Shown: positions 246 through 31,518 of the stretch, piece after piece | Layout of the letters: each line of letters starts with the position of its first letter | Position numbering within the stretch: the first letter of the stretch is position 1 | From: Methanoculleus sp. | Lineage (GTDB): Archaea > Halobacteriota > Methanomicrobia > Methanomicrobiales > Methanoculleaceae | NCBI GenBank assembly: GCA_018433835.1 | Contig: JAHDQM010000020.1 | Coordinates: 1-64,000, forward strand | Length of the DNA stretch: 64,000 bases | Direction of reading: 5' to 3' | Made by a program: the position numbers and the translations under genes | Notes under the pieces: model-generated | Database searches by the model: none | Seen by the model: only the letters and a program-made list of their open reading frames with translations | What the model was told of the DNA's origin: nothing

Positions 246-2690
246 TCACCGGATCTCCACACCCCTCAACCGCACCCCCGGCTCCTCCGTCACCTCGCCG
301 ACCACCCTGGCGTCGGGGACGATCGATTGGATGGCGGCCACGCTTTCGGCCGGGGCGACGAAGGCGTAGCCCATGCCCATGTTGAAGGTGCGGTACATCT
401 CCGCATCGCTGATCCCGCCAGTCTCCTGCAGCCAGGAAAAGATCTCGGGGACCGCGAGGGGATCGGTGAAGGAGAACCCGTACTCCGAGAGCCTCTTGAA
501 GTTCAGGAGGCCGCCGCCGGTGACATGGCACATCCCGTGGACGGTGCATGCCTCCGTCACCCGGAGCACCTCTGAATAGATCCGGGTGGGCGTCAGGAGT
601 TCTTCGCCGAGGGTCTTTCCGTTCGGAAGGAGGGTGTCGTAGGAGGCGCAGTCCTCGACGACCCGGCGGGCGAGCGTCAGGCCGTTGCTGTGGACGCCGC
701 TCGAGGGAACGCCGACGATCCGGTCGCCGGGGACGATCCCCTCGCCGGTGACGACCTTCTCCTTCTTCTGGACCCCGAGGCAGGTCCCCGCGAGGTCGAG
801 GCCGTTCACGAGCCCCTTGAGGGTCGCTGTCTCGCCGCCGACGATGCTCATGTTCGACTGCCGGGCCCCATCGTTCAACCCCTCGCCGATCCGGGCCATT
901 TTCTCGGGCAAGAGCGCGTCGGTCGCTATGTAGTCGACGAACGCCACCGGTTCGAGATTCATCACGTAGAGGTCGTTGACGTTCATCGCGATGCAGTCGA
1001 TCCCGACGGTGCTCCAGTCCTGCAGGGCGTCGGCGACGAGCATCTTGGTGCCGACGCCGTCGACCGCGAGCGCGAGGACGAAAGGCCCGCAGTCGATCAG
1101 CCCGGCAAAGTGCCCGACCTTCCCGAGCATCGGGAACGCGCCGGTCCTCCGGTAGGTGAGGCTGTCGATCAGCGCCCGCACCGCCCGGACCTCGAGGTCG
1201 ATATCGACCCCCGCTTCACGGTAGGTATGTCCTTCAGCACGGCACAACCCTCCGGGTTGTGCCTGGCAGGAAGATGCAAAGGCATCTTCCGTGTCATCAG
1301 AGTTCTCCGAGAGACGGAATTCGTCGTGCAGCACCTGCAGGGCCCGTTTGCCGTCCCCGGCCGTCACGACGAACGAGACGTTCACCTCGCTTGAGCCCTG
1401 CGAGATCATCATCATGTTGATGTTGGCCCGGCCGAGCGCGGAGAAGATCCGGCCTCCCGTTCCGGGGGTGCCGGCCATCCCCGCACCCACGACCGCGAGC
1501 GCAGCGACGTCCCGGTCGTAGGTGACCTCGCGTACGACGCCCTGCTTCACGATCGGGTTGAGGGCGCTGATGGCGGCATCCAGGTGGGATTCGTCGATGA
1601 TAAGGGAGATGTTTGCCTCGCTTGAGCCCTGCGAGATCATCATGACGTTCACCTCCCGCTCAGCGAGCGCGGAGAAGATCGTCTTTGCCACACCGGGGCG
1701 GCCGATCATCTGCGCACCGTTGATATTGACCAGCGCCACCTTCTCGATCAGGGCAATGGCCTTGACCACCCGCTTCTCCTGGTGCTTGTCCCGGAGGACG
1801 AGGGTGCCGGGTACTTCGGGCCTGAAGGAGTTCTTGACCCGGATCGGGATATCCTTCTGCATCGCGGGTTCGATCGACCGCGGGTGGAGGACCTTCGCGC
1901 CGAAGAAGGAGAGCTCCATCACCTCAAGGTAAGAGATGTCGTCGAGCACCCGGGCGTCCTTGATGATCCGGGGGTCGGAGGTCATCACCCCGTCGACATC
2001 GGTCCAAATCCAGACCTCGTCGGAATCGATCCCGGCGCCGACGACGGCGGCCGAGTAGTCGGAGCCGCTCCGGCCGAGGGTGGTGATGACACCCTGCTCG
2101 GTCGCTCCCATGAAGCCCATGATCACCGGGACGGCGTCGACGAGCAGCGGGGCTACCCGGCTCCGGATCCTCTCCTCGCTCGCCGGGAGGGCGCGGGCGT
2201 CCCCGTGATTCGCCGTCGTGACGATCCCGGCCTCGGCACCGTCGAGGACGACCGAAGAGATGCCGCGCTGGCGGAGGGCGGCGCTCACGATCGGGGCGGA
2301 GAGCCGCTCCCCGAAGGAGATGATGTAGTCGCGGGACCGGGGAGTCAGCTCCTTGAGGGTGTATACTGCGGTGAGGATGTTCTGCAGCCGGGTGAGCCGG
2401 TCGTCGATGACCGCCGTCACCTCGCGGGCGTAGTCAGGGGCCGTCTCCTCGAGGAGCCGGGTGTGCCGGGTCCGCATCGCCGCTAGAAGCGTCCCGATCT
2501 CCGGCTGCTCCTTGCTTGCTATGACCTCGTCGGCCACCGCGATGATCTGGTCGGTGACTCCCGAGCATGCCGATACGACCACCGCGACCTCGTCGCCTGC
2601 TCGCCGATGCGATTCCACAATGTCTGCGACCCGTCGGATACAGTCTGCCTCACCGACGGAGGTGCCGCCAAATTTCATTAAAAGCCTCAT
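246..2690 (-). CDS. lysC-purM: aspartate kinase fused to phosphoribosylformylglycinamidine cyclo-ligase (LysC-PurM)
   Basis: Single 814-residue frame. Residues 1 to about 465 are an aspartokinase: N-terminal KFGGTSV, a kinase core, then two ACT repeats that each contain MMISQGSSE, the usual site of feedback control by lysine or threonine. Residues from about 489 are a complete PurM (AIR synthetase, fifth step of purine synthesis) with DGVGTKM and GGETATL. The two enzymes belong to unrelated pathways. About 20 residues between them are encoded by a type A hairpin element (1238-1293). A likely original purM start (ATGAC, 1297-1293 on the minus strand) survives just before the element but is out of frame with PurM. 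The body of both enzymes looks intact. The fusion is probably recent; a separate PurM could only arise by internal initiation, for example at a TTG within the element. Confidence 0.92.
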   Translation of the reverse strand: MRLLMKFGGTSVGEADCIRRVADIVESHRRAGDEVAVVVSACSGVTDQIIAVADEVIASKEQPEIGTLLAAMRTRHTRLLEETAPDYAREVTAVIDDRLTRLQNILTAVYTLKELTPRSRDYIISFGERLSAPIVSAALRQRGISSVVLDGAEAGIVTTANHGDARALPASEERIRSRVAPLLVDAVPVIMGFMGATEQGVITTLGRSGSDYSAAVVGAGIDSDEVWIWTDVDGVMTSDPRIIKDARVLDDISYLEVMELSFFGAKVLHPRSIEPAMQKDIPIRVKNSFRPEVPGTLVLRDKHQEKRVVKAIALIEKVALVNINGAQMIGRPGVAKTIFSALAEREVNVMMISQGSSEANISLIIDESHLDAAISALNPIVKQGVVREVTYDRDVAALAVVGAGMAGTPGTGGRIFSALGRANINMMMISQGSSEVNVSFVVTAGDGKRALQVLHDEFRLSENSDDTEDAFASSCQAQPGGLCRAEGHTYREAGVDIDLEVRAVRALIDSLTYRRTGAFPMLGKVGHFAGLIDCGPFVLALAVDGVGTKMLVADALQDWSTVGIDCIAMNVNDLYVMNLEPVAFVDYIATDALLPEKMARIGEGLNDGARQSNMSIVGGETATLKGLVNGLDLAGTCLGVQKKEKVVTGEGIVPGDRIVGVPSSGVHSNGLTLARRVVEDCASYDTLLPNGKTLGEELLTPTRIYSEVLRVTEACTVHGMCHVTGGGLLNFKRLSEYGFSFTDPLAVPEIFSWLQETGGISDAEMYRTFNMGMGYAFVAPAESVAAIQSIVPDARVVGEVTEEPGVRLRGVEIR
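1238..1293 (-). repeat. type A two-hairpin element, copy 1, inside lysC-purM
   Basis: On the minus strand the element runs from CACGG to CCGTG. Hairpin 1 has stem GGAAGATGC/GCATCTTCC with a 4-base loop (plus-strand 1269-1290). TGCCA follows, then hairpin 2 with stem GGCACAACCC/GGGTTGTGCC and a 3-base loop (1241-1263). Both stems pair perfectly. Copies at 28897 and 31469 keep the frame of the element but change the stem bases on both sides. Confidence 0.85.
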
Positions 2691-2749
2691 TCTGGCTCAC
2701 TTGTCCCTGCAATTACTTTATGGTATTATACAACGCACCGACTAATAAG
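2691..2749. promoter_or_regulatory. divergent promoter region lysC-purM / tfrAB
   Basis: The only space between two divergent genes. It contains AT-rich stretches (ACTTTATGG near 2715 and TATTATACA near 2724) that could serve as TATA boxes; the first lies about 30 bases before the tfrA start, which would give a short leader. Inferred from position and composition only. Confidence 0.4.
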
Positions 2750-4381
2750 ATGCTTGTTGACGAGATTGTGGACGCGCACGTGCTGGTTATCGGAAGCGGC
2801 GGCGCCGGGGTACGGGCTGCCGTCGAGGCCTCCCGGTACGGCGGCGTGGCCCTGGTCTCCAAGACCATCGCCGGCAAAGGCGGGTGCACGACGATGGCGG
2901 AAGGCGGTTACAATGCCGTGCTGCGGGACCAGGACTCGATCGCGGTCCACCGCGAGGATACGCTCTCCGGCGGGGCGTACCTCAACGATCCCGCTCTGGT
3001 AGACGCACTGACCCTTGAAGCGCCGGAGCGGATGGCGGACCTCGTCCGCTGGGGCGCGGTCTTCGACGTCACACAAGACCGGCAGGTCGCGCAGCGGCCG
3101 TTCGGCGGCCAGCGGTTCCCCCGGACCTGCTACGCCGGAGACCGGACGGGCCACGAGATGATCATGACCCTCCTCGACCGCCTCGACGCGACCGATACGC
3201 ACCTCTACCAGGAGGTCTCGGTCGTCGACCTAGTAAAAGACGAGAACGGTGCCGTCGCCGGCGCCGTTGCTCTCGACCGGGACGGGGACGTCGTGCTCTT
3301 CCGGGCCGACGCCACGGTGCTTGCGACCGGCGGGGGGACGCAGGCCTACGATATATCCACGAACTCCGCCGCCGGAACCGGGGACGGGTTCGCAATGGCC
3401 TACCGGGCGGAGGCGGAGCTGATCGACATGGAGATGATCCAGTTCCACCCGACCGGAGCGGTCTACCCCTACGACGCCCGCGGCCGGCTGGTGACTGAGG
3501 CGGTCCGGGGCGAGGGGGGCATCCTATTAAACGCGCGGCGGGAACGGTTCATGGAGCGCTACGACCCCGAGCGGATGGAACTCTCCACCCGGGACGTGGT
3601 GGCCCGGGCGATCGCGACCGAGGTGCTGGAGGGGCGGGGCACGACCCGCGGCGGGGTTTACCTGGACGTGACCCACCTCCCGAGAGAAAGAATCGAGGCC
3701 CGGCTCCCGGTGATGCTCGAGCAGTTCCTCGCGTTCGGCGTGGATATCCGGCGGGAGCCGATGGAGGTGGCGCCCACCGCCCACCACATCATGGGCGGGC
3801 TCCGGATCACCCCTGAGTGCCGGACGACCATCCCCGGCCTCTTCGCCTGCGGGGAGGTGACCGGCGGGGTGCACGGCGCCAACCGCCTCGGCGGGAACGC
3901 CCTTGCCGATACGCAGGTCTTCGGGAAGCGCGCCGGGGAGTTCGCCGGAAAGGCGCCGGAACGGAGCGGCCGGATCGATGCCGCCCGGGTCGATGAGGTA
4001 ACCCGGATGCTCGACGCCTTCTTCGAGGGGGCGATAAACCCCGCAGATGTCAGGAAGGACCTGAAACTCACGATGTGGAACCAGGCCGGGATCTTCCGGA
4101 ACGCCCCCGACCTCCGGACGGCGCTCGGGCACGTCCGGCGACTGGCGGACAAGCGGCTCTGCGCCGCCTCGACCGCGAACCTTCTCGAGTGCTGCACGAT
4201 CCGGAACATGTGCACCACGGCGTCCCTGATCGTGCGGTGCGCCCTGCTCCGGCCCGAGAACCGGGGGGCTCACGTCCGGCTGGACGCGGAGATCGCGACG
4301 GACCCGGCGACTTCGCCATTCGGCCACACCTACGTCTCGCTCTCCCGCGAGGGGATCGAGCGGCGGGAGGTGCCGGCATGA
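2750..4381 (+). CDS. tfrA: thiol:fumarate reductase flavoprotein subunit TfrA
   Basis: 543 residues, of the succinate dehydrogenase/fumarate reductase flavoprotein family. The N-terminus has a dinucleotide-binding GSGGAG; GGCTTMAEGG and the HPTGAVYPYD region match the FAD and fumarate-binding parts of the family, and HHIMGGL lies near the capping-domain end. In methanogens TfrAB reduces fumarate with coenzyme M and coenzyme B, giving succinate for biosynthesis and the heterodisulfide. The start at 2750 is chosen because an upstream extension to 2567 would run into the divergent lysC gene. The stop overlaps the tfrB start (ATGA). Confidence 0.93.
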   Translation: MLVDEIVDAHVLVIGSGGAGVRAAVEASRYGGVALVSKTIAGKGGCTTMAEGGYNAVLRDQDSIAVHREDTLSGGAYLNDPALVDALTLEAPERMADLVRWGAVFDVTQDRQVAQRPFGGQRFPRTCYAGDRTGHEMIMTLLDRLDATDTHLYQEVSVVDLVKDENGAVAGAVALDRDGDVVLFRADATVLATGGGTQAYDISTNSAAGTGDGFAMAYRAEAELIDMEMIQFHPTGAVYPYDARGRLVTEAVRGEGGILLNARRERFMERYDPERMELSTRDVVARAIATEVLEGRGTTRGGVYLDVTHLPRERIEARLPVMLEQFLAFGVDIRREPMEVAPTAHHIMGGLRITPECRTTIPGLFACGEVTGGVHGANRLGGNALADTQVFGKRAGEFAGKAPERSGRIDAARVDEVTRMLDAFFEGAINPADVRKDLKLTMWNQAGIFRNAPDLRTALGHVRRLADKRLCAASTANLLECCTIRNMCTTASLIVRCALLRPENRGAHVRLDAEIATDPATSPFGHTYVSLSREGIERREVPA

Positions 4382-5841
4382 AGGAGATCACAATCCTGGT
4401 CTCGCGCTATGACCCGGCCGTGGACGCGGAGCCGCACTTCGAGGAGTACACGGTCCGGGTCAACGAGGGCGCCCGGGTGCTCCACGCTCTCCACGCGGTC
4501 CACGACGAGCACGACCCGACGCTCGCCTACCGCTACTGCTGCGGGTCGGGCCAGTGCGGAAGCTGCGCCGTCAGGGTGGACGGGAAGCCCGTTCTCGCCT
4601 GCATGGAGGAGGCCCGCGACGGGATGACGGTCGAGCCGCTTGACCTTCCGGTCTTAAAGGACCTGACGGTGGATATGAGCCCGGTCATCGCGAAGATCGC
4701 CCGGATATGCCCGGCTCCGGACGCGGGGCTCCCCTCAAGGGAGGAGATCGAGGCGATCAAGCCGCTCCGGGACTGCATCGAGTGCCTCTGCTGCGTATCG
4801 GCCTGCCCGGCGCTCCAGGTGACGGAGTTCGCGGGGCCGACTGTGCTGCGGCAGGAGATGCGTCTCGCCCTCGACCCCCGCGACTCGGGGGACCGGATAG
4901 GCGACGCCATCGAGAAGGGGCTCTTCTACTGCACGACCTGCAAGCGGTGCACGGAAGTCTGCCCGAAGGAGATCGACGTCCCGGGCAAGGCGATCGAGAA
5001 ACTCAGGGAGATTGCGAACCGGCGCGGGCTGACCCTTCCCCGCCACCAGGAGGTGGCGCGGCTGGTGCAGGAGACGGGACGGAGCGTCGAGCGGACGGAA
5101 GCCACGTTCCTCGAGCAGGTACCCGAGGTGATCGAGCCCGACGGTCCCGTCCGCGGGGAGGTGGGGTTCTTCGTCGGGTGCATGTTCAACGGCCGGGTGC
5201 CGCAGACGGCGCTCGACGCGATGGAGGTCATGAAGCGCAACGGGATCCGGGTGATCGTCCCCCACGACCAGGTCTGCTGCGGTTCGCCGCTGATCAGGAC
5301 GGGGCAGACGTCGAACGTCGGCGACCTGAAGCGCAAAAACATCGAGGCTTTCGCCAGCCGCGGGATCAAGACCGTGATGACGATCTGCGCCGGGTGCGGG
5401 GCGACGCTGAAGAACGATTACGAGACGCCGTTTACGGTGAAAGACGTCACCGAGGTCCTCACCGAGTACGGGATCGAGCTCCCGGCGAAACTCGACGTCA
5501 GGGCGACCTACCACGACCCCTGCCACCTCCTCCGCGGCCAGGGGATCAGCGAGCAGCCGCGCACGATTCTCCGCGAGGCCGTCCGGGAGTTCGTGGAGAT
5601 GCCCTCACAGTGCTGCGGCGCCGGCGGCGGCGTCCGGTCGGGGGTGCCGGAGGAGGCCAAAGCCCTCGGGGCGAAACGCGACGAGTGCGTGAAGGCGACC
5701 GGTGCTGACGTGGTGGTGACGGTCTGCCCGTTCTGCGAGTTCCATATTGCGGATTGTACGGACGTTCCCGTGAAGAACCTGACGACGATCCTCCTCGAGG
5801 GTTACAAAAAGAAGGACGCGGAGCGGGAAGGCTCTGCGTGA
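4378..5841 (+). CDS. tfrB: thiol:fumarate reductase iron-sulfur subunit TfrB
   Basis: 487 residues. The N-terminal 2Fe-2S ferredoxin-like part has CCGSGQCGSC and a later CMEE cysteine. The middle carries two 4Fe-4S motifs (CIECLCCVSACP, CTTCKRCTEVCP). The C-terminal half has two CCG-type domains (VCCGSP, CAGCGA; HDPCH, QCCGAGGG), as in HdrB, which bind the cluster that handles the CoM/CoB disulfide. Start ATG overlaps the tfrA stop, so the pair is translationally coupled. The only close paralogue expected in the genome is heterodisulfide reductase; the succinate-dehydrogenase-like N-terminus together with CCG domains identifies TfrB. Confidence 0.93.
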   Translation: MKEITILVSRYDPAVDAEPHFEEYTVRVNEGARVLHALHAVHDEHDPTLAYRYCCGSGQCGSCAVRVDGKPVLACMEEARDGMTVEPLDLPVLKDLTVDMSPVIAKIARICPAPDAGLPSREEIEAIKPLRDCIECLCCVSACPALQVTEFAGPTVLRQEMRLALDPRDSGDRIGDAIEKGLFYCTTCKRCTEVCPKEIDVPGKAIEKLREIANRRGLTLPRHQEVARLVQETGRSVERTEATFLEQVPEVIEPDGPVRGEVGFFVGCMFNGRVPQTALDAMEVMKRNGIRVIVPHDQVCCGSPLIRTGQTSNVGDLKRKNIEAFASRGIKTVMTICAGCGATLKNDYETPFTVKDVTEVLTEYGIELPAKLDVRATYHDPCHLLRGQGISEQPRTILREAVREFVEMPSQCCGAGGGVRSGVPEEAKALGAKRDECVKATGADVVVTVCPFCEFHIADCTDVPVKNLTTILLEGYKKKDAEREGSA

Positions 5842-5850
5842 GTCTCCCGA

Positions 5851-5870
5851 TCATCTCCTTTTTTGTATAG
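5851..5870 (+). terminator. possible T-tract terminator after tfrB
   Basis: A run of six T (5859-5864) follows 18 bases after the tfrB stop, typical of archaeal U-rich termination. No strong hairpin precedes it. Confidence 0.45.
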
Positions 5871-6113
5871 TCCGGGGTTGCCCCCGGCGGATTCGCACAG
5901 GCAATCTCGTTTCCAGCGGGCGCCTATCGCGGGCTTGTGGATGCGCCGACCTCTCCTGCCTCCGGAACCGGCGCTAGTTTTATGCAGCCCCCATTCAACC
6001 CTGGTATCAGGTACAGTCCCCGGACGAGCTCCTGCAAGACGACTGATGCACCGGGAAACCAGAGCACGTGCAATTAATATAGTGCCCGGTAAGACTCTAC
6101 CAGAGGAAGGGAA

Positions 6114-6716
6114 ATGCAGATCGCGAGTGCTCCCGACGGCACCATCCACATTGACGGAAAGGTTGTGACCGCACTCGATCGTTTTGTAGCCTCGGTGACG
6201 GGCATCGTCGAGCGGTATACGCGCTACGTGATCGTCAGCGGGTACGTTGCAATCCTCTTTGGAAGGGCCAGGGGTACGGAAGATATCGATCTCCTAGTCG
6301 ACTACATGGACCGCGATACGTTCCGGTCATTTTCCGAGGACCTTCTGGCACGAGGATTCTATTTCCTGAACTCCGACGACATCGGGGAGATCTACTCGAT
6401 GCTCTGCGACAGGCTTGCCGTGCGGATTGCCGGGGCCGGGAGGATCATCCCGAACGTCGAGATGAAGTTCAAGAAAGACGACTTCGATCGTTATGCGATG
6501 TCCAGGGCGAAGGCGGTAGAATTCGACGACATCCGGTTCTTCGTATCGCCCATCGAACTGCAGATTCCCTACAAACTCTATCTTGGGAGCGACAAGGATA
6601 TCGAGGATGCAGTCTATCTCTGGGTGTTGTTCGGGGAAATGCTGGACGGCAATCTCCTGCGATCATTCATGGAGCGCCTGCAGGTCCGGGGGGAGCAGTA
6701 TGGAATTGAGGTTTGA
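6114..6716 (+). CDS. nucleotidyltransferase-fold protein, possible antitoxin/toxin component
   Basis: 200 residues. GYVAILFGRARGTEDIDLLVD near residues 43-63 matches the nucleotidyltransferase core seen in AbiEii- or MNT-like proteins, with the paired acidic residues D-I-D. The rest has no clear domain. The downstream small gene starts 17 bases before this stop, so the two form a coupled pair, an arrangement typical of toxin-antitoxin modules. Its role as toxin or antitoxin is inferred from context only. Confidence 0.65.
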   Translation: MQIASAPDGTIHIDGKVVTALDRFVASVTGIVERYTRYVIVSGYVAILFGRARGTEDIDLLVDYMDRDTFRSFSEDLLARGFYFLNSDDIGEIYSMLCDRLAVRIAGAGRIIPNVEMKFKKDDFDRYAMSRAKAVEFDDIRFFVSPIELQIPYKLYLGSDKDIEDAVYLWVLFGEMLDGNLLRSFMERLQVRGEQYGIEV

Positions 6717-6930
6717 TCGCGAGAAGAACCGGCAGGAGCGGCTGGCCTTTGTCCGGAGACATGCTCTCTGGGTCAGGGAGGTTCCAAACGAGGTGTGGAG
6801 CCGCGAGCAGGCCGACCTGATCGACGCGTTCTTTGAGAATGCCCGGAACTTCGCTCTTTCCCGGTCCGAGTACCTCCGGATGCACCGGGTTGCCCGGCAC
6901 AGCCGCGAATCGATGCACGGTGACGGGTAA
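6700..6930 (+). CDS. small hypothetical protein coupled to nucleotidyltransferase
   Basis: 76 residues, charged and probably helical, beginning MELRFDREKNRQERLAF. ATG at 6700 overlaps the end of the nucleotidyltransferase gene. No family recognised. Its size and coupling suggest the partner of the upstream protein. Confidence 0.55.
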   Translation: MELRFDREKNRQERLAFVRRHALWVREVPNEVWSREQADLIDAFFENARNFALSRSEYLRMHRVARHSRESMHGDG

Positions 6931-6950
6931 CTCAGGCAGGGCGGACGGGG

Positions 6951-7030
6951 CCGTTTCCAACCATTGGTTCAAATATATTCCACGTGGAACGAAATGTGTC
7001 CATGCAGATCGTTTCACTTCTAACCGGGGG
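6951..7030. repeat. dispersed 80-bp repeat, copy 1
   Basis: Aligns without gaps to 11731-11810; by hand count 61 of 80 bases match. It contains the perfect 12-base palindrome TTCCACGTGGAA (6979-6990) next to an AT-rich AAATATAT. It lies in the gap between the small gene above and the 3' end of ablB. Function unknown; it could be a regulatory site or the relic of a small mobile element. Confidence 0.6.
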
Positions 7031-7081
7031 GACCTGCACCTCCGAAAACCTGCCAGGGATTCGGACATTTCGCGTGACGCA

Positions 7082-7099
7082 CCATCTCTTCTGAGATGG
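7082..7099. repeat. short perfect hairpin
   Basis: Stem CCATCTC/GAGATGG around TTCT, in the gap downstream of ablB. It could act in transcription end or be a lone module of the hairpin family. Confidence 0.4.
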
Positions 7100-7218
7100 C
7101 CCGAGCCGACGTAAACCGATGCTCCCTTTTGCTGTTTGCTTCCCGTATTGTGCCAGCAGGTGGACGTGCGCCCTGAAGGCGGCACGACACCCATCCTTAC
7201 ACGGCGGAGGCTTCTCCG

Positions 7219-9361: not shown

Positions 9362-9396
9362 TTGAAGCTCCTCCGGTTCACAACTGTACCGCCAAC

Positions 9397-9406
9397 CATA
9401 TATAAC
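9397..9406 (-). promoter_or_regulatory. TATA box of ablAB
   Basis: Minus-strand GTTATATATG, about 36-45 bases before the ablA ATG, with room for a short leader carrying the SD sequence. Confidence 0.6.
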
Positions 9407-13980: not shown

Positions 13981-13981
13981 C

Positions 13982-18368: not shown

Positions 18369-18389
18369 GGGAACGTCTACAATAATCTC

Positions 18390-24012: not shown

Positions 24013-24131
24013 CTCTTCAGTCCTCCGTCAAATCCCTGAAAGAAAATGAATATCTTCAGATTTATTGACATATTCATGCCTTTTTCTCCAGGTTTTATAA
24101 ACAGTTACATTCCGGGGGGACGGTTAAACAT

Positions 24132-24155
24132 CGCGGAGCACCCGAAGGGGGCAAA
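24132..24155 (+). repeat. possible degenerate hairpin module
   Basis: GCGGAGCACCCGAAGGGGGC resembles the second hairpin of type B with its GAA loop, but only part of the unit is present. Intergenic. Confidence 0.3.
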
Positions 24156-24261
24156 CAAATAAAAACACTTCTCGCCCGCTTGATCTTAACATCTCAGTGC
24201 AGCCAGGCCGCAGACGCGCAAACTTCTGTATGAGGTCTTCGCCAAAAGTCAGTTCCCGCCC

Positions 24262-25452
24262 TTACCCAATCGTCTCCGCGATGATCTCCCGGGCACACTC
24301 CTGCACGGTCTGCCGGTGCTCCTCCGGGCAGAAGAGATAGAAGATCGTTCGGGGCTCGCCGGTATAGGCCAGAGTAGAAAACGAGTCGATCTCGGTGACC
24401 GTCCCGTCCTTCCTCTCGATCAGGAACGGGAATTTATCCTCCTCAAGGAGGGTGGTAACCGACTTGAAGAGTGAGTTCTCGATCTTCACCAGGTCGGCAA
24501 CGATATAATCGGGATCGCATCCGCACTCCTCCGCCACCGCCCTCTCAATCATTCGGGCTCTGTCCGGGGTGAACTTTGTCCCGAGTTGGTACCGGAGGAG
24601 GTAGTCCTCCTCCTGCGAGACGTTGGACCCATACCCGCGTTTGAAGAGATCCCTTCTCTCCAGCCTCCGGACAAGGTCGGCTGCGGTGCTCTCCGGTCTT
24701 GAGAGCATCTGTGCGAGCAACCGTGCATCGTCAAGAGCCAGATAGTGCTCAAGAAAGTCATCCCTCCCTATCTGGATCTTCTCTGCATCCACGGCCCCGT
24801 CCCTGACGGCAACCTCGATCGCCCGCTGGAGCATCCCGTTTGCCACGACATTGGTGTGGTGGTGGTAGACCTGAGCGTGCATCAGGAACCGCGCCAGCCT
24901 GAAACTCTCGATAGCATCTATACCCTTTTCATGGACGGCAAGATCCTCGCGTTGCCGGAACCGGGTCTTTCGGGTCTTTCGAAGGGTATAGAGAACGCGT
25001 TCGAGGTCGAAATTGCCGTAGGCCACGCCGGTGTGGTAGGAGTCACGACGGAGGTAATCCAGCTTGTCGGCATCGATGTTGCTCGAAACGATCTGGTGGA
25101 GAATACCGTTCTGGTCCTCAGAGAGGACTGCGGCGACACCCTCGGCCACCTCGCCGAGGATTGAGGAGACCTCTTCGTCTTCCCTGATGATACGGCGGGT
25201 GACCGCCTCGTGCGTAGCATCTTTCCCATTGATCTCCTTCAGGGGCGCCTCAAAAACGTGAGAGAACGGGCCGTGGCCGACGTCGTGAAGCAGGGCGGCG
25301 TAACGAAGGATCATAAGGTCGTCGCCCTCGACCTGCAGCTGCCGCGCCATGAGGGTGGCGATGTGCAGGACGCCGAGGGAGTGCTCGAAGCGGGTGTGGC
25401 ACGCGGCAGGGTAGACCAAATGTGCGTTGGCAAGCTGCTTGATCCTGCGCAA
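24262..25452 (-). CDS. HD-domain phosphohydrolase (YwfO-like)
   Basis: Shown from the first conventional codon (TTG 25452, 396 residues). HTRFEHSLGV and LLHDVGHGPFSHVFE carry the HD metal ligands of dNTP triphosphohydrolase relatives. The true protein must be longer: in-frame codons upstream encode HVRDPLYGYIGL and LLDTPPFQRLRRIKQ, which are typical of the family N-terminus. No ATG, GTG or TTG lies between there and the previous stop. Initiation at ATC 25575, or frameshifting from the overlapping upstream gene, is possible. The pair with the next gene recalls ywfO-ywgA of Bacillus. Confidence 0.8.
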   Translation of the reverse strand: MRRIKQLANAHLVYPAACHTRFEHSLGVLHIATLMARQLQVEGDDLMILRYAALLHDVGHGPFSHVFEAPLKEINGKDATHEAVTRRIIREDEEVSSILGEVAEGVAAVLSEDQNGILHQIVSSNIDADKLDYLRRDSYHTGVAYGNFDLERVLYTLRKTRKTRFRQREDLAVHEKGIDAIESFRLARFLMHAQVYHHHTNVVANGMLQRAIEVAVRDGAVDAEKIQIGRDDFLEHYLALDDARLLAQMLSRPESTAADLVRRLERRDLFKRGYGSNVSQEEDYLLRYQLGTKFTPDRARMIERAVAEECGCDPDYIVADLVKIENSLFKSVTTLLEEDKFPFLIERKDGTVTEIDSFSTLAYTGEPRTIFYLFCPEEHRQTVQECAREIIAETIG

Positions 25453-25564
25453 TCTCTGGAACGGTGGGGTATCTAAAAGGCGGAGTTCATCCAGGGTAAG
25501 CCCGATGTACCCGTAGAGCGGATCCCTGACGTGCTTCTCATACGTGAGCGTGCGATTCCCCCGG

Positions 25565-26113
25565 TCATGAAAGATGAAGGTTCTTGAGGAGAGTCATCCC
25601 CCGGTCGATCTGGTCCTCTGTGAGATCCCAGTTCAGCGTTCTGGCAATCTCCCGGATCTCGTCATGCGAAAGATCCCTCTTCTCCAGCATCTGGATATAG
25701 TGAACCTTCGCGGCCCATGAGAGGGTCTTGGAGTCGAGGTTCGCGGTGTCCTCGCAGATATTGACGATCTCTTCTATCTCCCGGGCTTCTGAGGCGTGCT
25801 CCTTTTCCAGCCTTGAAACCAATTTCCTGCCATCATCTGTGAGGCTGTAGGTGTAGCGCTTCCAGTCGGGTGTTGCTGTAGATCCTGGAGCGACAGGTGT
25901 CTCTACTCTCTCCTCGATGAAGCCGTAGGAGACGAGGGCCTGGATCGCGCCGGCAATATCTGCGCTGTAGGGGCCGTAGTAATGCGGGCGATAGTGTGCC
26001 TTGATGGCGTCCGGAATCGTCGAGAAATATCCCAGCTTCTGGATCGCAGTCCGGCCCGGGATCCGACCTCCTGCCGCTTTCAGCATTACGAGAACGCCGT
26101 CAAATTCATCCAT
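25565..26113 (-). CDS. YwgA-like protein
   Basis: 182 residues. GGRIPGRTAIQKLGYF followed by HYYGPYSADIAGAIQALVSYGFIEE is the pattern of YwgA and related Panacea/DUF4065-like proteins with a winged-helix feel. The 3' end overlaps the extended reading frame of the HD gene by about ten bases, so the two are probably one transcript. In bacteria homologues are also adjacent. Function unknown. Confidence 0.65.
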   Translation of the reverse strand: MDEFDGVLVMLKAAGGRIPGRTAIQKLGYFSTIPDAIKAHYRPHYYGPYSADIAGAIQALVSYGFIEERVETPVAPGSTATPDWKRYTYSLTDDGRKLVSRLEKEHASEAREIEEIVNICEDTANLDSKTLSWAAKVHYIQMLEKRDLSHDEIREIARTLNWDLTEDQIDRGMTLLKNLHLS

Positions 26114-26188
26114 ACGTCAGGTCTCCAGTGAGTTTATGGCATAATCGTAGATGCCATATTTATAGGGCACGGCAAGTATACGAGTGTT

Positions 26189-26221
26189 ATGCTAATCTCC
26201 ATGTTCTGATTATATTAGCAT
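26189..26221. promoter_or_regulatory. inverted repeat in AT-rich upstream region
   Basis: Perfect 8-base arms ATGCTAAT and ATTAGCAT separated by 17 bases, about 75 bases before the YwgA-like gene and 250 before the Schlafen-like gene. TTTATAGGG near 26158 could be a TATA box. Possible operator. Confidence 0.4.
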
Positions 26222-26313
26222 GCCGATATGATTTTCTTTCCCCGGTATCCCAAAAACGCTTTTTTGCTGTTATAATTGGATGGGTCTAAACACCGTGGTT
26301 CGATCCGGTCACG

Positions 26314-26390
26314 CTACCCGCCGCCCAGCATCTTCACGATCACCGCCACCCCGCCGGCCCTCCAGCACCCCGGCAGGGGCAGTTTGGGAT
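26314..26390 (-). pseudogene. 3' remnant of small membrane-protein gene
   Basis: The minus strand ends GGVAVIVKMLGGG then stop, nearly the same as the end (GGVAVIVRVLGGG) of the small gene at 28347-28730. DNA around the stop (CGCCCAGCA, TCACCGCCACCCC) also matches. The rest of the gene is missing. The two related tails flank the Schlafen-like gene in the same orientation. Confidence 0.6.
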
Positions 26391-26511
26391 GACCTCCAGG
26401 TGAGCGGAGCGATTTGAAAAATAACATCGTTCTGCTCATGGTATTTTCAGACAACACCGTCGCCACCCCGGAATGATCGATCCTATATGCGTCCACGACT
26501 CACTTCCATGT

Positions 26512-28224
26512 ATGCACACCCCTGACGAAGTTCGCCGCCTCCTCGACGACCTCGATGTCGTTCCAGCCGACGAACTCGAAGGTCAGGATCTTGACTTCAA
26601 AGAATGGATCACACGCAGCCGAAACGACGCTCTCAATCAAGTCGTCGAATACGCTGTCTGCATGGCTAACGGTGGCGGCGGCACCATCGTCTTCGGTGTT
26701 CGGGATCGTGTCATCGGGAGGGAGCAGGCAATCATCGGTGTCCCTCCAGAGATCGACATCAACCGGTTGAAGAGGGTCGTCTACGATTCGACCGATCCTA
26801 AACTCACGCCCGTCTTTGAAGAACTCAGGGTACCTGAAGGAACCGGCCGTCTCATCCTGATGCAGGTTCATTATGGCATCCCCCCCTACACTGACACCAG
26901 CGGTCACGCGAAGATCCGGGTTGGAAAGGACTGTCAGCCACTCACCGGCACCCTGCGGCGCCGGATCAGCGTGGAGACCGGGGAGAACGATTTCACCGCT
27001 GGCGAACTTCCTGGACATCCCGAATCACACATTTCAGCGGCGGCTATGGAAATGCTCCGGACGTCGGCAGAGCGGGAGCATGCCCCTGATGAGTTCCTCG
27101 AACTTTCAGACGTAGACCTCCTTAGCTCGCTCGGTCTAATCCGGTCCGGACATATCACCCGGGCCGGGATTCTTCTTGCTGGAAAAGAACGCTCAATATG
27201 CCAACACCTCCCTAACTCTGGTTGGACACATCTCCGTATGGTTGATGATACCGACTATTCCAATCGTATGGACGGTCAGAATGCAATATTGGTTGCCATT
27301 GCACGGATATTCGATCGGATAATGGCCGACAATCCTATCACGACCCTCAAACAGGGGATGTTTCACTTTGAGTTCCGCCGGTATCCAGAGATTGTTCTCC
27401 GAGAGGCACTGATGAACGCCTTCTGTCACGCAGACTACAGGATTGGCGGGCCGGTGATCGTCCGCCAGTACCCCGATATGCTGGAGATCGGGAACCCGGG
27501 CGGGTTCATCGGCGGGGTCTCCCCTGAGAACATCCTCCATCATCCACCAGTTGCCAGGAACCCCCTCCTTGTCGGGGCGCTCATGCAGTTGCACCTGGTA
27601 AACCGAAGTAATCTTGGGGTTCCACGGATGTACAAAGCTATGCTGATCGAGGGAAAAGAAGTGCCGGTTATCAGGGAGCAGGGCGACGCTGTCACGGTGC
27701 TCCTTAAGGCCGGAGAGTTTTCTCTCCCCTTCCGGGTCTTTGTCGAGGAAGAGAGCGAAACAGGGAAGGGACTGACAGTCGATCACCTCCTCCTTCTTGC
27801 GCATCTGCTCCGCCATCCCGAGGTCGATACGCATACGGCCGCATCTCTGATCCAGCGATCCGAACGTGAGGTGCGGGACGTCTTACATGAGATGGAGACC
27901 GTGCGCGGCTACCTGGATCGGGGCGGCACAGGGCGTGGCACCTACTGGGTCCTTCGCCCGGACCTCCACCGGCGGCTAATGGCACCGGGCCACCCCGATC
28001 GAGATCGGCGGATCGACTGGGAAGCGGCGAAGACCCGGGTGCTCAGCGTGCTGCGGCAGCGGGCCAGCCGCGGAGAGATGGGCCTGTCTAACGCTGAAGT
28101 CAGACAGATCACTCATCTGGACAGATATCAGGTAGTCCGGTTGATGCAGCAGCTCCAGGAGGAAGAACCCCAGATCAGTCTTAAGGGGAAGGGGAGAGGA
28201 AGCAGGTACTTCTATCAGGAATAA
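26512..28224 (+). CDS. Schlafen AlbA_2 domain ATP-binding protein with C-terminal winged helices
   Basis: 570 residues from ATG 26512 (583 from 26473). The N-terminal AlbA_2 domain shows LDFKEWI, VEYAVCMANGGGGTIVFGV and later PPYTDTSGHAKIRVG. The central ATPase-like part has LREALMNAFCHADYR. The C-terminus has two winged-helix segments. Relatives are called ATP-dependent DNA helicase RecG-like or transcriptional regulators and often occur in defence or accessory regions. A long palindrome follows directly. Confidence 0.85.
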   Translation: MHTPDEVRRLLDDLDVVPADELEGQDLDFKEWITRSRNDALNQVVEYAVCMANGGGGTIVFGVRDRVIGREQAIIGVPPEIDINRLKRVVYDSTDPKLTPVFEELRVPEGTGRLILMQVHYGIPPYTDTSGHAKIRVGKDCQPLTGTLRRRISVETGENDFTAGELPGHPESHISAAAMEMLRTSAEREHAPDEFLELSDVDLLSSLGLIRSGHITRAGILLAGKERSICQHLPNSGWTHLRMVDDTDYSNRMDGQNAILVAIARIFDRIMADNPITTLKQGMFHFEFRRYPEIVLREALMNAFCHADYRIGGPVIVRQYPDMLEIGNPGGFIGGVSPENILHHPPVARNPLLVGALMQLHLVNRSNLGVPRMYKAMLIEGKEVPVIREQGDAVTVLLKAGEFSLPFRVFVEEESETGKGLTVDHLLLLAHLLRHPEVDTHTAASLIQRSEREVRDVLHEMETVRGYLDRGGTGRGTYWVLRPDLHRRLMAPGHPDRDRRIDWEAAKTRVLSVLRQRASRGEMGLSNAEVRQITHLDRYQVVRLMQQLQEEEPQISLKGKGRGSRYFYQE

Positions 28225-28230
28225 ATCAAA

Positions 28231-28266
28231 TGTGACCTGGAATGTGATTGTCACATTCCTGTCACA
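28231..28266. repeat. near-perfect 36-base palindrome
   Basis: Outer arms TGTGAC/GTCACA enclose a perfect stem GGAATGTGA/TCACATTCC with a TTG loop. It starts 6 bases after the Schlafen-like stop. It could be a transcription end signal, or an operator read by that protein's winged helices. The triloop stem also fits the general hairpin style of this window. Confidence 0.65.
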
Positions 28267-28346
28267 TTATCCGATCCGAAATGTGCGCAGATTGTGAAGT
28301 CATCATTTCACGGCATTCCTTCGATTGTCCCTGCCTGTGATCCGCC

Positions 28347-28730
28347 TCACCCCCCGCCCAGCACCCTCACAATCACCGCCACCCCCCCGCCGACGACCCC
28401 ACCGGCCCCGGCGCTGATCGTCGAGATCCTCTTCTCTCGCACCTTACGGTGCTCGAACTCCTGCTCCGCACCTTCGGTGCTCATGCTCCGGCCCTTCGGG
28501 CCATCGCACCCTGCGGCCAGTCGCTCTTCTCCAACCTTCTCCGCCCGCCAGCCCTCCAGCGCCCAGAGCCGGACCTCAAACTCCTCGTTCGAAGACCTTC
28601 GGTCTTCTCCCGCTCCCGCCCTGCGGCCGGTCGCGTCCCACTCCTCCATCCGTTGCAGCGCTTTACAAATCCACTTCACATCCCGGTTCGTCTCGTAAAC
28701 GAGCTCCCGGGTGGTCTTTTCGTTGGTCAT
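28347..28730 (-). CDS. small C-terminal membrane protein with two in-frame hairpin insertions
   Basis: 127 residues. The start MTNEKTTRELVYETNRDVKW and end ISTISAGAGGVVGGGVAVIV (then RVLGGG) look like one small protein with a single C-terminal membrane segment. Between them lie two stretches encoded by type B hairpin modules (about residues 31-46 and 67-100), which are arginine/glutamate rich and low in complexity. Without them the protein would be roughly 75-80 residues. Function unknown; holin-like size. Confidence 0.6.
   Translation of the reverse strand: MTNEKTTRELVYETNRDVKWICKALQRMEEWDATGRRAGAGEDRRSSNEEFEVRLWALEGWRAEKVGEERLAAGCDGPKGRSMSTEGAEQEFEHRKVREKRISTISAGAGGVVGGGVAVIVRVLGGG
28437..28525 (-). 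repeat. type B hairpin module, copy 2, within a gene
   Basis: On the minus strand GCGACTGGCCGCAGGG leads to stem GGCCC/GGGCC with loop GAA (28490-28502), spacer GGAGCATGA, stem GCACC/GGTGC with loop GAA (28468-28480), then an extra stem GCACC/GGTGC with loop GTAA (28439-28452). All three stems are perfect. Confidence 0.8.
28585..28640 (-). repeat. type B hairpin module, copy 3, within a gene
   Basis: The minus strand reads GCGACCGGCCGCAGGGC, spacer GGGAGCGGGA, then stem GAAGACC/GGTCTTC with loop GAA (28591-28607). The second stem differs from GCACC/GGTGC on both sides but keeps full pairing and the GAA loop. Confidence 0.8.
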
Positions 28731-28896
28731 CCAGGTAACCCTCCCGGTGGACTATAGGTGGTCGGGGACAAAAAGGCTGACCGTAACGATTATATTTCAG
28801 AATCCAAGCCCAATTCAGGCTCCCCGATAAAGTCAGACTGATGCCCTCCCGGGTCTACCCTATAGTTGTCTGTCATATTCCCGGGAGCATGCAGGC

Positions 28897-28951
28897 CACG
28901 GGAGATGCTTCGCATCTTCCTGCTAGGCACAACCGAGAGCGTTGTGCCGTG
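28897..28951 (+). repeat. type A two-hairpin element, copy 2
   Basis: From CACGG to CCGTG. Hairpin 1: GGAGATGC/GCATCTTCC (one unpaired base) with loop TTC. Then TGCTA, then hairpin 2: GGCACAAC/GTTGTGCC with a 7-base loop. It ends 14 bases before the ATG of the next gene, so it forms that gene's leader. Confidence 0.85.
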
Positions 28952-28965
28952 AGGAGTTACCAACC

Positions 28966-29472
28966 ATGGCAGACTTCGTTCAGACAACCGTGAACAAAAC
29001 GGCGGTCCGGGACCTTGCCGTCCCGATCGCCGACGTAACGTCGTTTAACAACCTCATCGAGACCGTCATCGACGACAACCCGTTCGGGTGCGTCGGGTAT
29101 ACGGGCGCCGACGGCGAGGCCGTCGCCCCGATCGTCCGCAACCGCGAGCACTACACCGCGAAGGTGAACTTCCTCGACGGCGAGGGCAAAAGGGTCGGGA
29201 CCGTCTCGCTCCAGTCCCCGACGATCGCCGCGTTCGAGGCGAGCGCCGCGGAAGTCCTCGCGAATGCGGCCCTCGCGGTCGCGATGGGCGGCGAGGCCGT
29301 CCGGAACGGCCCCGGCGAGACCTACTACGCCCAGCTCCGATGCCACGACCCGTCGGGTGACGACTACTACGTCACCTTCACCAGAAAGACCGTCCGGATC
29401 TCGTCCTACCAGGACGACGCCATCCGGAACGCGGTCGAGACCTGGGCCGACGCCGTCGCGTCGCTGGACTGA
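28966..29472 (+). CDS. hypothetical protein, 168 residues
   Basis: Soluble, acidic and GC-rich, from ATG 28966 after the SD-like GAGGAG. The sequence MADFVQTTVNKTAVRD and later YYAQLRCHDPSGDDYYVTFT, RISSYQDDAIRNAVETWADA suggests a compact alpha/beta protein. No family recognised. A type A element forms its leader. Confidence 0.6.
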   Translation: MADFVQTTVNKTAVRDLAVPIADVTSFNNLIETVIDDNPFGCVGYTGADGEAVAPIVRNREHYTAKVNFLDGEGKRVGTVSLQSPTIAAFEASAAEVLANAALAVAMGGEAVRNGPGETYYAQLRCHDPSGDDYYVTFTRKTVRISSYQDDAIRNAVETWADAVASLD

Positions 29473-29545
29473 GGGGGCTTTTGCCCCCTTTCACCGTTCA
29501 AACCCTGTGCGATCCCGGCGGGGCCGGATCAACTCCGTCATGCGA

Positions 29546-30667
29546 TCATTCCGTCTCCGGCGTGTCTTCCGACCATTCGATCAGTTTCTTCTTGAGCTCC
29601 TCTTTTGAAGGAAGATAAACCTGATACCGGGAAGCATAGACATTGGCATCTTTCGGGAGAGTGAGTTCTACAAGTGCGTCGTTCTTTATCTTGCACAGAA
29701 TGATCCCGACGGTCGGATTTTCATCCTCGAATTTAACTTTCCTGTCGTAATAGTTGACATACATCTGCATCTGGCCGAGATCGCTGTGAGTGATTCTTCC
29801 GATCTTAAGATCGATCAGGACATAACATCGGAGGATACGGTTGTAGAAGACAAGGTCTACGAAGTAGTGGTCGGCATCGAAAGTAAGTCGCTTCTGTCGT
29901 GCTTCAAAGAGGAAGCCTTTGCCCAGTTCAAGGAGAAACGTCTCCAGTTTGTCAATGATGGCTGATTCGAGATCGATCTCTCTGTAGCAGGCTTTCTCGT
30001 CAAGGCCGAGGAATTCAAGAACATACGGGTCTTTAAGCATATCCTGTGGCTTCTCAATGACGTGGCCGGTAAGGGCGAGGGCTCTCACACCGCTCTTGTC
30101 CCGGCTGAGTGCAAGCCGTTCATACAGGCCGGTGTTGAACTGCCGTTTGAGTTCCGAGAGCGACCACCGGTTCTGTTGAACCTCGATCTCGTAGAAACGG
30201 CGTTCGTCTCGGTTGCCGATGTTTATCAGGAAGACGTAGTGAGACCAGCTGAGAGCGAACCGGGGGGTGAATTGTGCAGACAGTGTCTGCGCAATTGGTT
30301 GCCCGACGGGAACGGCCGCATCGGACCCGCCGGACACTGCCAGGGGAGTCGATTCGGAGTATTCAAGGTAGAACCGGCGCATATATTCAAGATTTCGTTT
30401 GGAGAACCCCCTCCCAAACTCTTCGGTCAGGTGGCGCGACAGCTCCTGGATGGTCCGTTTCCCATACCCTGCCTTCGGATCTCCCTGCTGCTCATGTTCG
30501 ACTATCCGCCTGCCGATCTCGAAGTTAGTAACTACCTGTATCGTGTTGACATTCTGTGCTACGGCCAGGCGGGCTTTCCGGACGACATCCTGGATTTCTC
30601 TGATGAGAGGAAAAATGGGCTCTTCCTGTTCTCCTCCAGCAGTTCTCCCTACTGGTTTTTCCGACGT
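29546..30667 (-). CDS. PDDEXK nuclease domain protein, DUF1016/YhcG type, apparent ACG start
   Basis: Residues from about 95 on contain the DUF1016 C-terminal nuclease domain: FDADHYFVDLVFYNRILRCYVLIDLK gives the D...D-L-K pattern. The N-terminal DUF1016 part (VTNFEIGRRIVEHEQQG, YGKRTIQELSRHLTEEFGRG) is in the same frame, but the first conventional start is ATG 30382, in mid-gene. The expected start is ACG at 30667, with GGAGG 7 bases upstream. The whole reading is 373 residues, normal for the family. Either ACG is used or an ATG to ACG change has silenced the gene. Confidence 0.82.
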   Translation of the reverse strand, partial: TSEKPVGRTAGGEQEEPIFPLIREIQDVVRKARLAVAQNVNTIQVVTNFEIGRRIVEHEQQGDPKAGYGKRTIQELSRHLTEEFGRGFSKRNLEYMRRFYLEYSESTPLAVSGGSDAAVPVGQPIAQTLSAQFTPRFALSWSHYVFLINIGNRDERRFYEIEVQQNRWSLSELKRQFNTGLYERLALSRDKSGVRALALTGHVIEKPQDMLKDPYVLEFLGLDEKACYREIDLESAIIDKLETFLLELGKGFLFEARQKRLTFDADHYFVDLVFYNRILRCYVLIDLKIGRITHSDLGQMQMYVNYYDRKVKFEDENPTVGIILCKIKNDALVELTLPKDANVYASRYQVYLPSKEELKKKLIEWSEDTPETE

Positions 30668-30710
30668 ATTTCTTCCTCCTCTATCGGTTCTCGTTCAAGG
30701 TAGATGGTTG

Positions 30711-30727
30711 AGACCCACCCGGGGTCT
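30711..30727. repeat. short hairpin
   Basis: Stem AGACCC/GGGTCT with a 5-base loop between the DUF1016 gene and the UPF0175 relic. Style matches the hairpin modules. Confidence 0.35.
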
Positions 30728-30742
30728 AGCACATGGAGCGTC

Positions 30743-31005
30743 TTAATAACCGCGAGCTGCATAGGCAATGTCCTGGTCAAGGTCCTCCTCGGGGTAGTGC
30801 CGGGGGATCTTCCGCTTCCCGCGCAGTTCCTCCCACTCCCACCAGTTCATCCCGGCAAGAGCGGCTGCCTTACCCGAAGAGAGGATACCCCGCTGGTAGA
30901 GCGCCAGTGGCCGCGCTCCCGCTGCAGCTCGATCTGAACGGCATCGGGGGGTAGTCGAAGCGCCTGAACGATATCCTCCGGGACCCTGATGGTAACATCG
31001 GACAT
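30743..31005 (-). pseudogene. frameshifted UPF0175 family antitoxin
   Basis: From ATG 31005 the first frame gives MSDVTIRVPEDIVQALRLPP and then IELQRE. After that the coherent reading moves to another frame: ALYQRGILSSGKAAALAG, then NWWEWEELRGKRKIPRHYPE, to a TAA at 30743. Together they match a whole UPF0175 protein, usually an antitoxin for PIN toxins. The frame break lies near 30915. No partner toxin is seen. Confidence 0.8.
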
Positions 31006-31278
31006 AACCGGTTCACCTGATGAATAGGGGATAGAGGGGGAGAACTGATAAACGTGGTGATAGATCCCACTGTTCTTGACGAAGGATCACATCCCCAGTC
31101 CGATCTCAGACCTGCATGATTACCGGCGCTGTCACCGTACTGAACTGAGGAGAGAGGTATCCACCGCTCAATTTTCTCAGTGCGGAGCGCAAGGTCGCTT
31201 CGGTAAACAACCCCTCTTTAGACAGAGATATGTAGATTGAAACACCAGAGTATCAATATACCCAGAGGTGAGACCGCC

Positions 31279-31482
31279 ATGACCCGAGTAAAAGAGGAGA
31301 TCATCAGCGAGCTCGACGACCTCCCGCCCCGGACATGCGGTGAGGTGCTTGACTTCATCCGGTTCCTCAAATCCCGACGCCGGAAGGCCGCCCCCGACAC
31401 CGCCCTCGCGAGCGAGCCCACGCTCCGGAAAGACTGGCTCCGGCCCGAGGAGGAAGAGGCGTGGAACGCACGGGAACTGTGA
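31279..31482 (+). CDS. DUF2281-like antitoxin
   Basis: 67 residues from ATG 31279 (SD GAGGTGA). The N-terminal half ELDDLPPRTCGEVLDFIRFL matches DUF2281/VapB-like antitoxins. The stop TGA lies within the first loop of a type A element, so the C-terminus was set by the insertion or just touches it. The downstream mazF-like gene is broken, so this is an orphan. Confidence 0.75.
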   Translation: MTRVKEEIISELDDLPPRTCGEVLDFIRFLKSRRRKAAPDTALASEPTLRKDWLRPEEEEAWNAREL

Positions 31483-31518
31483 GCAGTTTCCTGTCAGGCA
31501 AATTTTCAATTTGCCGTG
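31469..31518 (+). repeat. type A two-hairpin element, copy 3
   Basis: From CACGG to CCGTG. Hairpin 1: GGAACTG/CAGTTTCC (one unpaired base) with loop TGAG. Then TGTCA, then hairpin 2: GGCAAATT/AATTTGCC with loop TTC. Only the ends and the CCTGYYAGGCA core match the other copies; the stems are different but paired. Confidence 0.85.

Follow-up and report, generated by a model that had tools for sequence, protein, structure and literature searches.

Double-hairpin elements (DHEs) of the fungal mitochondria of Allomyces and Schizosaccharomyces, together with the hairpin elements of sponges, are short and dispersed, mostly intergenic and sometimes located in genes (PMC2800124 and PMC10085805). In Allomyces, flanking duplications are reported to be missing, and for this reason an RNA route was suggested (PMC2800124); the DHEs of fission yeast are described as potentially mobile, with interspecies transfer possible (PMC10085805). 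Rickettsia palindromic elements (RPEs), as presented in PMC10969869, are mobile palindromes of ~150 bp that lie in frame in unrelated genes and add a peptide to the product. Here we analyse a two-hairpin element, denoted type A, that occurs three times in a 64,000-nucleotide stretch of archaeal DNA (Methanoculleus sp., GenBank assembly GCA_018433835.1, contig JAHDQM010000020.1, positions 1 to 64,000, forward strand; henceforth the window). Comparison of empty and filled sites establishes that the element is mobile; its closest described counterpart is the fungal-mitochondrial DHE in form and the RPE in effect.

As described, DHEs share with type A the small size, the two adjacent hairpins, and presence or absence between relatives without flanking duplication. 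DHEs belong to mitochondrial DNA, whereas type A resides on an archaeal chromosome and has stem modules, head-to-tail arrays and conserved CACGG/CCTGNCAGG/CCGTG junctions; it also inserts in frame into coding sequence, and relatives have exact empty sites. Because the location and several details differ, we do not class it as a DHE. The parallel with RPEs is in-frame insertion into coding sequence, seen for some copies but not all (lysC-purM, an FMN-reductase-like gene, and the C-terminus of tnpB in the genome of the window). RPEs, in that account, measure ~150 bp and are found in Rickettsia; type A measures 49-57 bp, forms two separate hairpins and is found in Methanomicrobiales.

Bacterial repetitive extragenic palindromic (REP) sequences, including REP doublets forming hairpins (REPINs) and bacterial interspersed mosaic elements (BIMEs), are short paired palindromes that form arrays and are non-autonomous, with a GTAG or CGTC tag at one palindrome end. 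Type A is likewise short, paired, arrayed and non-autonomous, but it lies within coding genes, has stems of unrelated sequence and is low in copy number; its ends, compared by eye, are CACGG and CCGTG, with CGTC inside some stems (GCGTC). Membership in the REP system with its REP-associated tyrosine transposase (RAYT) fails, because the genome of the window has no Y1 transposase match. Miniature inverted-repeat transposable elements (MITEs) are also short and non-autonomous, with terminal inverted repeats (5 bp, CACGG/CCGTG, in type A); unlike a MITE, type A leaves no target duplication at three flush sites and consists of two hairpins rather than a shrunken transposon. No parent transposon of the MITE kind was found in a search confined to the Y1 and reverse-transcriptase families. 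The attC site of integrons, which lies beside cassettes and is a single long, imperfect hairpin with core boxes, is recognised as a folded single strand; type A would resemble it in folded-strand recognition and free stem sequence, and differs from it in layout.

Three copies in the window

The window comes from contig C53 of a genome of 2.94 Mb, which we label G000 (other genomes, contigs and loci carry G, C and L numbers). The copies and their hairpins are as follows.

1238-1293, minus strand: copy 1, 56 bp, at the overlap of the lysC stop and purM start, with the 5' end of the element at 1293; identified by fold, covariance model and empty sites
1269-1290, minus strand: copy 1 hairpin 1, GGAAGATGC/GCATCTTCC, by RNA folding
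1241-1263, minus strand: copy 1 hairpin 2, GGCACAACCC/GGGTTGTGCC, by RNA folding
28897-28951, plus strand: copy 2, 55 bp, in the leader of a gene whose product begins MADFVQ, directly 5' of an AGGAG ribosome-binding site; relatives have 0, 1, 2 or 3 copies
28900-28920, plus strand: copy 2 hairpin 1, by RNA folding
28926-28948, plus strand: copy 2 hairpin 2, by RNA folding
31469-31518, plus strand: copy 3, 50 bp, with stems unlike those of copies 1 and 2; identified by fold and covariance model, with 18 distinct loci lacking the insert
31472-31491, plus strand: copy 3 hairpin 1, GGGAACTG/CAGTTTCC, in the register of the other copies; the lowest-energy fold has a shifted register
31497-31515, plus strand: copy 3 hairpin 2, GGCAAATT/AATTTGCC, by RNA folding

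Each copy reads CAC, a hairpin GG...CC, a 5-base linker, a second hairpin GG...CC and GTG. A first-pass annotation, made from the sequence alone, had reported these three copies, and its coordinates, CACGG starts, CCGTG ends and TGYYA linker are exact in all three; its contexts of fused gene, leader and gene cap are right for copies 1, 2 and 3, respectively. RNA folding gives two hairpins per copy, with z-scores of -6.28, -4.49 and -3.66 for copies 1, 2 and 3, each better than all 200 dinucleotide shuffles. In the lowest-energy fold of copy 3, hairpin 1 is displaced by a few bases and contains a bulge; the common register is also possible, with eight pairs, one of them G-U (by eye).

Scanning the window for exact CACGG...CCGTG stretches of 20-140 bases revealed no further copy of the element's shape. 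The core motif TTCCTGNNAGGC, with one mismatch at most, gave 3 matches against 3.98 expected and is not above chance. Across the whole genome, the core motif TTCCTGYYAGGC matched 6 times against 3 for a reversed control; unlike the core, the whole element is far above chance. One of those six matches, in G000:C35, was set aside as an apparent CRISPR spacer. An Rfam scan of the window at the gathering score returned no match, and a literature search, which left subscription papers mostly outside its coverage, found no report of such an element in Methanoculleus or Methanomicrobiales. The first-pass annotation, which had made no search, knew of no described archaeal element of this layout, and this agrees with the sources searched.

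Empty and filled sites

Comparison of empty with filled sites, which had been proposed as a means to detect target duplication, revealed insertion and, at three sites, no duplication. At the lysC/purM junction, the 30 best loci from 58 genomes with a match comprise 23 empty sites, three intact copies (G000, G032, G008), three decayed full-length copies (G001, G023, G002) and one short remnant (G011). The nearest empty forms read GATGACTGA and the filled form GATGA-element-CTGA. At the antitoxin/toxin junction that holds copy 3, where the comparison took in 30 loci, 18 distinct loci lack the insert versus two that are filled, and relatives read GGAGCGATTTGT; more filled copies at this junction are found in L055, L038, L058 and L061. 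At an N-terminal site in tnpB (C43:24302), 16 rows are without the insert and one is with it. Insertion at these three sites is flush, with neither target duplication nor deletion. Near the C-terminus of tnpB is a second site, where six distinct places from five genomes contain a 51-bp insert; in G000, the only genome read for this, the frame stays open.

Further copies lie inside other transposase genes: L206 (51 bp) and L207 (53 bp), whose genes we take to be IS256-like transposases, and L059 (51 bp), presumably in an IS5-like transposase. For copies in insertion sequences, the same in-element sites recur across genomes, so these copies travel with their carriers. Spread solely by such hitch-hiking, without movement of the element itself, would explain why several sites lie in tnpB elements and in transposase genes of other kinds, and why the same in-element site recurs in different genomes. 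It does not explain the clean insertions into host sequence (lysC/purM and the antitoxin/toxin junction), where the empty sites are exact and no insertion sequence lies at the junction, nor presence and absence at the MADFVQ leader, and we consider it very improbable.

Copies and host range

Covariance model 1 was built from five copies and model 2 from 55 matches. The covariance-model scan that the first-pass annotation had proposed shows more copies, so that the first of its two refuting outcomes, no further copies in the genome, did not arise. Model 1 found five strong ones in the genome (E 8.2e-13 or better), namely the three window copies, C43:24302 and C59:7790, as well as weaker matches at C43:25241 in tnpB (E 4.4e-5) and at C6:50159 (E 0.008). 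At E 0.01 or better, the same model matches 27 of 61 genomes, counting the genome itself and related ones. Model 2 at E 0.001 or better matches 36 of 232 Methanomicrobiales genomes in 8 of 40 genera; with this model, 21 of the 35 genomes of the own genus carry the element.

The observed range is Methanomicrobiales. In a phylum sample of 392 spread genomes, all 13 that match at E 0.0001 or better belong to the own genus or order. Bacteria and other phyla, searched with one stem-specific pattern only, gave eight stretches, all from Methanoculleus or from euryarchaeal or Methanomicrobiales metagenome-assembled genomes. Two stem-specific patterns had no match in viral contigs. A free-stem pattern matched at least 120 stretches there; among the matches listed (loci L220-L339, 192 segments), the best stems are 6 bp + 6 bp, and these matches look like chance and were rejected as copies.

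Across the family, the layout is CACGG-stem-CCTGNCAGG-stem-CCGTG, which is identical in the reverse complement. The element measures 49-57 bp, most commonly 51 or 55. In a set of 89 distinct copies, the length is divisible by three in 34 and the linker is TGNCA or TANCA in 52; L014, L045-L047, L078-L083 (weak or partial), L344, L349, L341:316 and L354:271 stand outside this set.

Stem pairing and modules

The stems of copies 1 and 2 are almost identical, so that the window alone provides a single contrast, copy 3 versus the others; the evidence for covariation is therefore drawn from the wider family. Fitted to the model, 55 matches (51 of them distinct) give an alignment in which 95.6% of cells are paired; both sides have changed in 14 of 21 pairs, and none of 500 shuffles attains any of five covariation measures. 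A second alignment was made with MAFFT, without structure, from 28 copies of our own choosing, in which some sites have more than one row (four for the left end of tnpB, two for its relative and two for the FMN reductase). Here pairing holds in 97.4% of 499 cells, and both sides have changed in 12 of 18 pairs; of 500 shuffles, none attains any of four measures and 12 attain the fifth (further pair types). When the structure is slid along this alignment, pairing drops to 35-56% in every version. The proposal that stems stay paired through change on both arms is thus borne out, with no shuffle of 500 reaching the observed pairing or both-side change. The second refuting outcome, stems that do not stay paired, did not arise either: the 28 chosen copies keep pairing, although some old copies, at lysC-purM, have lost it.

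Stem arms seen in the family include GGAAGATGC, GGGAACTG, GGAAACTGC, GGAAAATGC, GGCACAACC, GGCAAATT, GGAAAATC and GGCAGATC. Among the 89 distinct copies, seven 7-base arms were found at both hairpin positions, and the arms combine into 48 pairs (one-base variants are counted separately, and a few splits are misplaced). Units also form head-to-tail arrays of two or three, either abutting or with one C between them; single hairpins occur as remnants (L082, L083) and as look-alikes (L080, L047). Because stems are swapped as modules, changes on both arms may reflect, besides compensatory mutation, the exchange of modules or the copying of arms.

Arm copying is the basis of another account of the pairing, hairpin repair, in which one arm is rewritten from the other by template switching and palindromes stay perfect without selection. 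Near-perfect stems, recurring modules and the scarcity of wobble pairs (10 of 499 cells in the 28-copy alignment) agree with it. Not every copy is kept perfect by repair, as shown by the lysC/purM copies of G001 and G023, which have lost the fold, and by array copies that have unpaired cells; moreover, repair accounts for pairing and not for dispersal. We regard it as a possible explanation, on balance a doubtful one. The few wobble pairs also point weakly to a DNA rather than an RNA strand.

Two kinds of longer arrangement were seen. In five genomes (L022, L033, L068, L080, L047), copies or single hairpins are enclosed by the two arms of a longer inverted repeat, resembling ACCGGTCTCCAG ... 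CTGGAGACCGGT (judged by eye). At the loci labelled f4/g6, including G101 and G103 (L346-L352, L354-L358), strings of hairpins and repeats cluster around TCGAGAA and CCGGAGG motifs; the two-hairpin unit occurs among these clusters, at times with more hairpins in a row.

The lysC-purM fusion and decay of the fold

Copy 1 encodes a linker between two metabolic proteins.

246-2690, minus strand: single open reading frame of 814 aa, aspartate kinase (residues 1-463) and PurM (residues 489-802) joined by the linker that copy 1 encodes

In the empty state, the lysC stop and the purM start overlap briefly, and the element places both genes in one frame. Frame and fold were read at 24 of the 30 loci; G002, G015, G012, G024, G006 and G029 entered the empty-site comparison only. 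The frame is open from the end of lysC through purM in five genomes (G000, G032, G008, G001 and, with only the short remnant, G011); in G023, which has a decayed copy, lysC and purM remain two genes. In G000, each half gives a good match to its family (asp_kinases, 452 bits; TIGR00878 purM, 332 bits). Possible restarts for purM are a TTG within the element in G000, G032 and G008 and, in G001, an ATG at the beginning of its decayed copy. Judged from these reading frames, LysC-PurM is likely made as one polypeptide.

The site also records loss of the fold. For segments with up to 8 flanking bases, compared with 100 simple shuffles, the fold z-score is -5.3 to -6.4 for the three intact copies and 0.3 and 1.8 for the decayed copies of G001 and G023. 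Decayed copies fold no better than shuffles, and the fold is therefore not kept for the host at this site. In a tree of LysC plus PurM, filled and relic genomes do not form a single clade. G008 and the empty G016 branch together (100/90), as do G011 and G014, the latter empty (88/76, under the starred level). A single ancestral insertion inherited vertically is not supported by this tree.

The first-pass annotation had inferred selection for the fold. The paired stems are real; a host function does not follow from them, given that the fold is lost at lysC-purM and that stems are swapped as modules. Spreading, rather than host function, appears to keep the fold.

A functional RNA or regulatory leader (riboswitch-like, or acting in stability or as a terminator) that the host maintains because of its RNA fold finds some support upstream of the MADFVQ genes. 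Among the leader loci compared, 17 have one to three copies directly 5' of the ribosome-binding site, three have one hairpin left and 13, with a gene of the same family, lack type A; twelve of the MADFVQ loci came in through the model, so that these counts are not frequencies. Both arms of the stems vary in this leader, as in GATGC/GCATC against GACGC/GCGTC, and many stems still pair. The loci without the element speak against a host-kept RNA, as do the copies within coding sequence (tnpB, the transposases read as IS256-like and IS5-like, the FMN-reductase-like gene and lysC-purM), the decay at lysC/purM and the lack of an Rfam match in the window. We judge such an RNA improbable as the explanation for the family.

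Proposed mechanism

In our view, type A elements are very likely minute non-autonomous mobile elements; in the reading that we favour, they would move as a folded two-hairpin strand, be read by their fold and junctions and be joined flush to the target by an enzyme acting in trans, with later decay or retention. The moving form would be a single strand of DNA (or RNA) that forms two hairpins and is recognised through this fold and the CA(C)GG/CC(G)TG junctions, not through stem sequence. The trans-acting enzyme that joins it to the target could come from the host or from a resident element. Selection on spreading would keep the stems paired; a fixed copy would then decay, or stay as a linker, an in-frame peptide, a leader or a gene end, and insertion sequences that carry a copy would disperse it too.

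Several results weigh against this mechanism. No transposase or other enzyme is tied to the element among the families searched, Y1 and reverse transcriptase. Y1 transposases (PF01797) have no match in G000 and exceed the cut-off in 2 of the 21 carriers of the genus versus 4 of the 14 non-carriers; reverse transcriptases occur in two carriers (G000, G032) and one non-carrier (G022). Carrier status is taken from model 2, by which G014 and G003 count as non-carriers although they have weak matches with model 1. Neither family is associated with the element, and both were rejected as its mobilising enzyme. The three closing CAC/GTG pairs show no both-side change in the 28-copy alignment, so that covariation does not support a three-way junction, and the ends of the element may instead be kept as sequence. 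At the C-terminal site of tnpB, CTGTGGA flanks the insert on both sides (by eye), which makes this junction less clean. Numerous copies at the MADFVQ leader still fold, and a local function is possible there. Finally, filled and relic genomes are dispersed over the lysC-purM gene tree, so that the account also needs recombination, precise loss or repeated insertion. A further adverse result concerns target choice. At 22 picked sites from the 28-copy set, oriented with the purine-rich stem first, 17 have T at position -7 before the element (0 of 2000 base-composition simulations). Automatic clustering of 96 copies over-merges, with 35 copies from several sites in one cluster, and gave 21 clusters, of which three that follow another element were excluded; among the remaining 18, T at -7 occurs in 11 (315 of 2000 simulations) and is not confirmed. 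No 3' flank column is notable in the picked sites, and the best columns of the automatic clusters are +13 (41 of 2000) and +16 (118 of 2000). A weak target preference is hinted at; if real, the T at -7 mirrors the right end of the element itself, T.CCGTG, and one may speculate that one enzyme cuts both.

The last point would also suit a REP/REPIN- or IS200/IS605-type element moved in trans by a Y1 (HUH) transposase, perhaps since lost, as flank and end would be cut alike. Single-strand hairpins, the lack of target duplication and the frequent association with tnpB-type insertion sequences fit Y1 transposition as generally understood. Against it stand the distribution of Y1 matches, the failure of the automatic clusters to confirm the target hint, and ends of CACGG/CCGTG rather than GTAG or CGTC; we hold this origin to be unlikely. 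As a separate observation, a reverse-transcriptase match (G000:C59:2393-3019, L366), one of three in the 35 genomes of the genus, lies ~5 kb from the C59 copy on a 9.7-kb contig.

Returning to a strand read by fold and junctions, we raise more tentatively that type A may represent a class of elements defined by fold alone, in archaea as in fungal mitochondria, whose enzyme would read the hairpins whatever the stem sequence and join them flush, fusing genes and adding repeat peptides. Modules would be re-assembled at the CCTGNCAGG and CCGTG-CACGG junctions, and the element, if such a class exists, would be a combinatorial hairpin string more than a fixed sequence. Regardless of class, a 56-base insertion puts the two metabolic genes lysC and purM in one frame, and another protein grows stepwise by 17-residue units. 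With its exact empty sites, its intact copies and close Methanoculleus relatives such as M. sediminis S3Fa, which has an array of three copies, this archaeal family offers a setting in which movement could be studied.

Copies in other genes

The stepwise growth is seen in an FMN-reductase-like protein (name read from sequence), which has one, two or three 17-residue units ahead of a VLGISGSP motif. Each unit corresponds to one 51-bp copy; G052, G107 and G108, three genomes from another family, have them, and 22 of the 25 loci compared do not. The remaining two window copies adjoin the following genes.

28966-29472, plus strand: gene 3' of copy 2, 168 aa, MADFVQ..., member of a multi-copy family without Pfam or NCBIfam match
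31237-31482, plus strand: antitoxin-like open reading frame, with its final codons and stop inside copy 3; DUF2281 and VapB matches are below the cut-offs

The MADFVQ family has a conserved leader, TGTCTGTCATATTCCCGGGAGCATGCAGGC, and several copies in G016. In L158 and L008, a different two-hairpin insertion of ~45 bp, without CACGG ends (by eye), lies 5' of the MADFVQ gene. Since this other insertion shares the leader, the leader may be an insertion hot spot.

Adjacent to the antitoxin-like gene, the toxin frame is broken both in the window (31519-31700) and in G004 (L118), with copy 3 at its start and a second repeat inside. This second palindromic repeat, ~45-50 bp and unrelated to type A, lies beside copy 3 at ~31600-31652, inserted in a toxin region that we call MazF-like by eye. 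It occupies the same place in G004 and has many matches across the genus, some of them in tandem.

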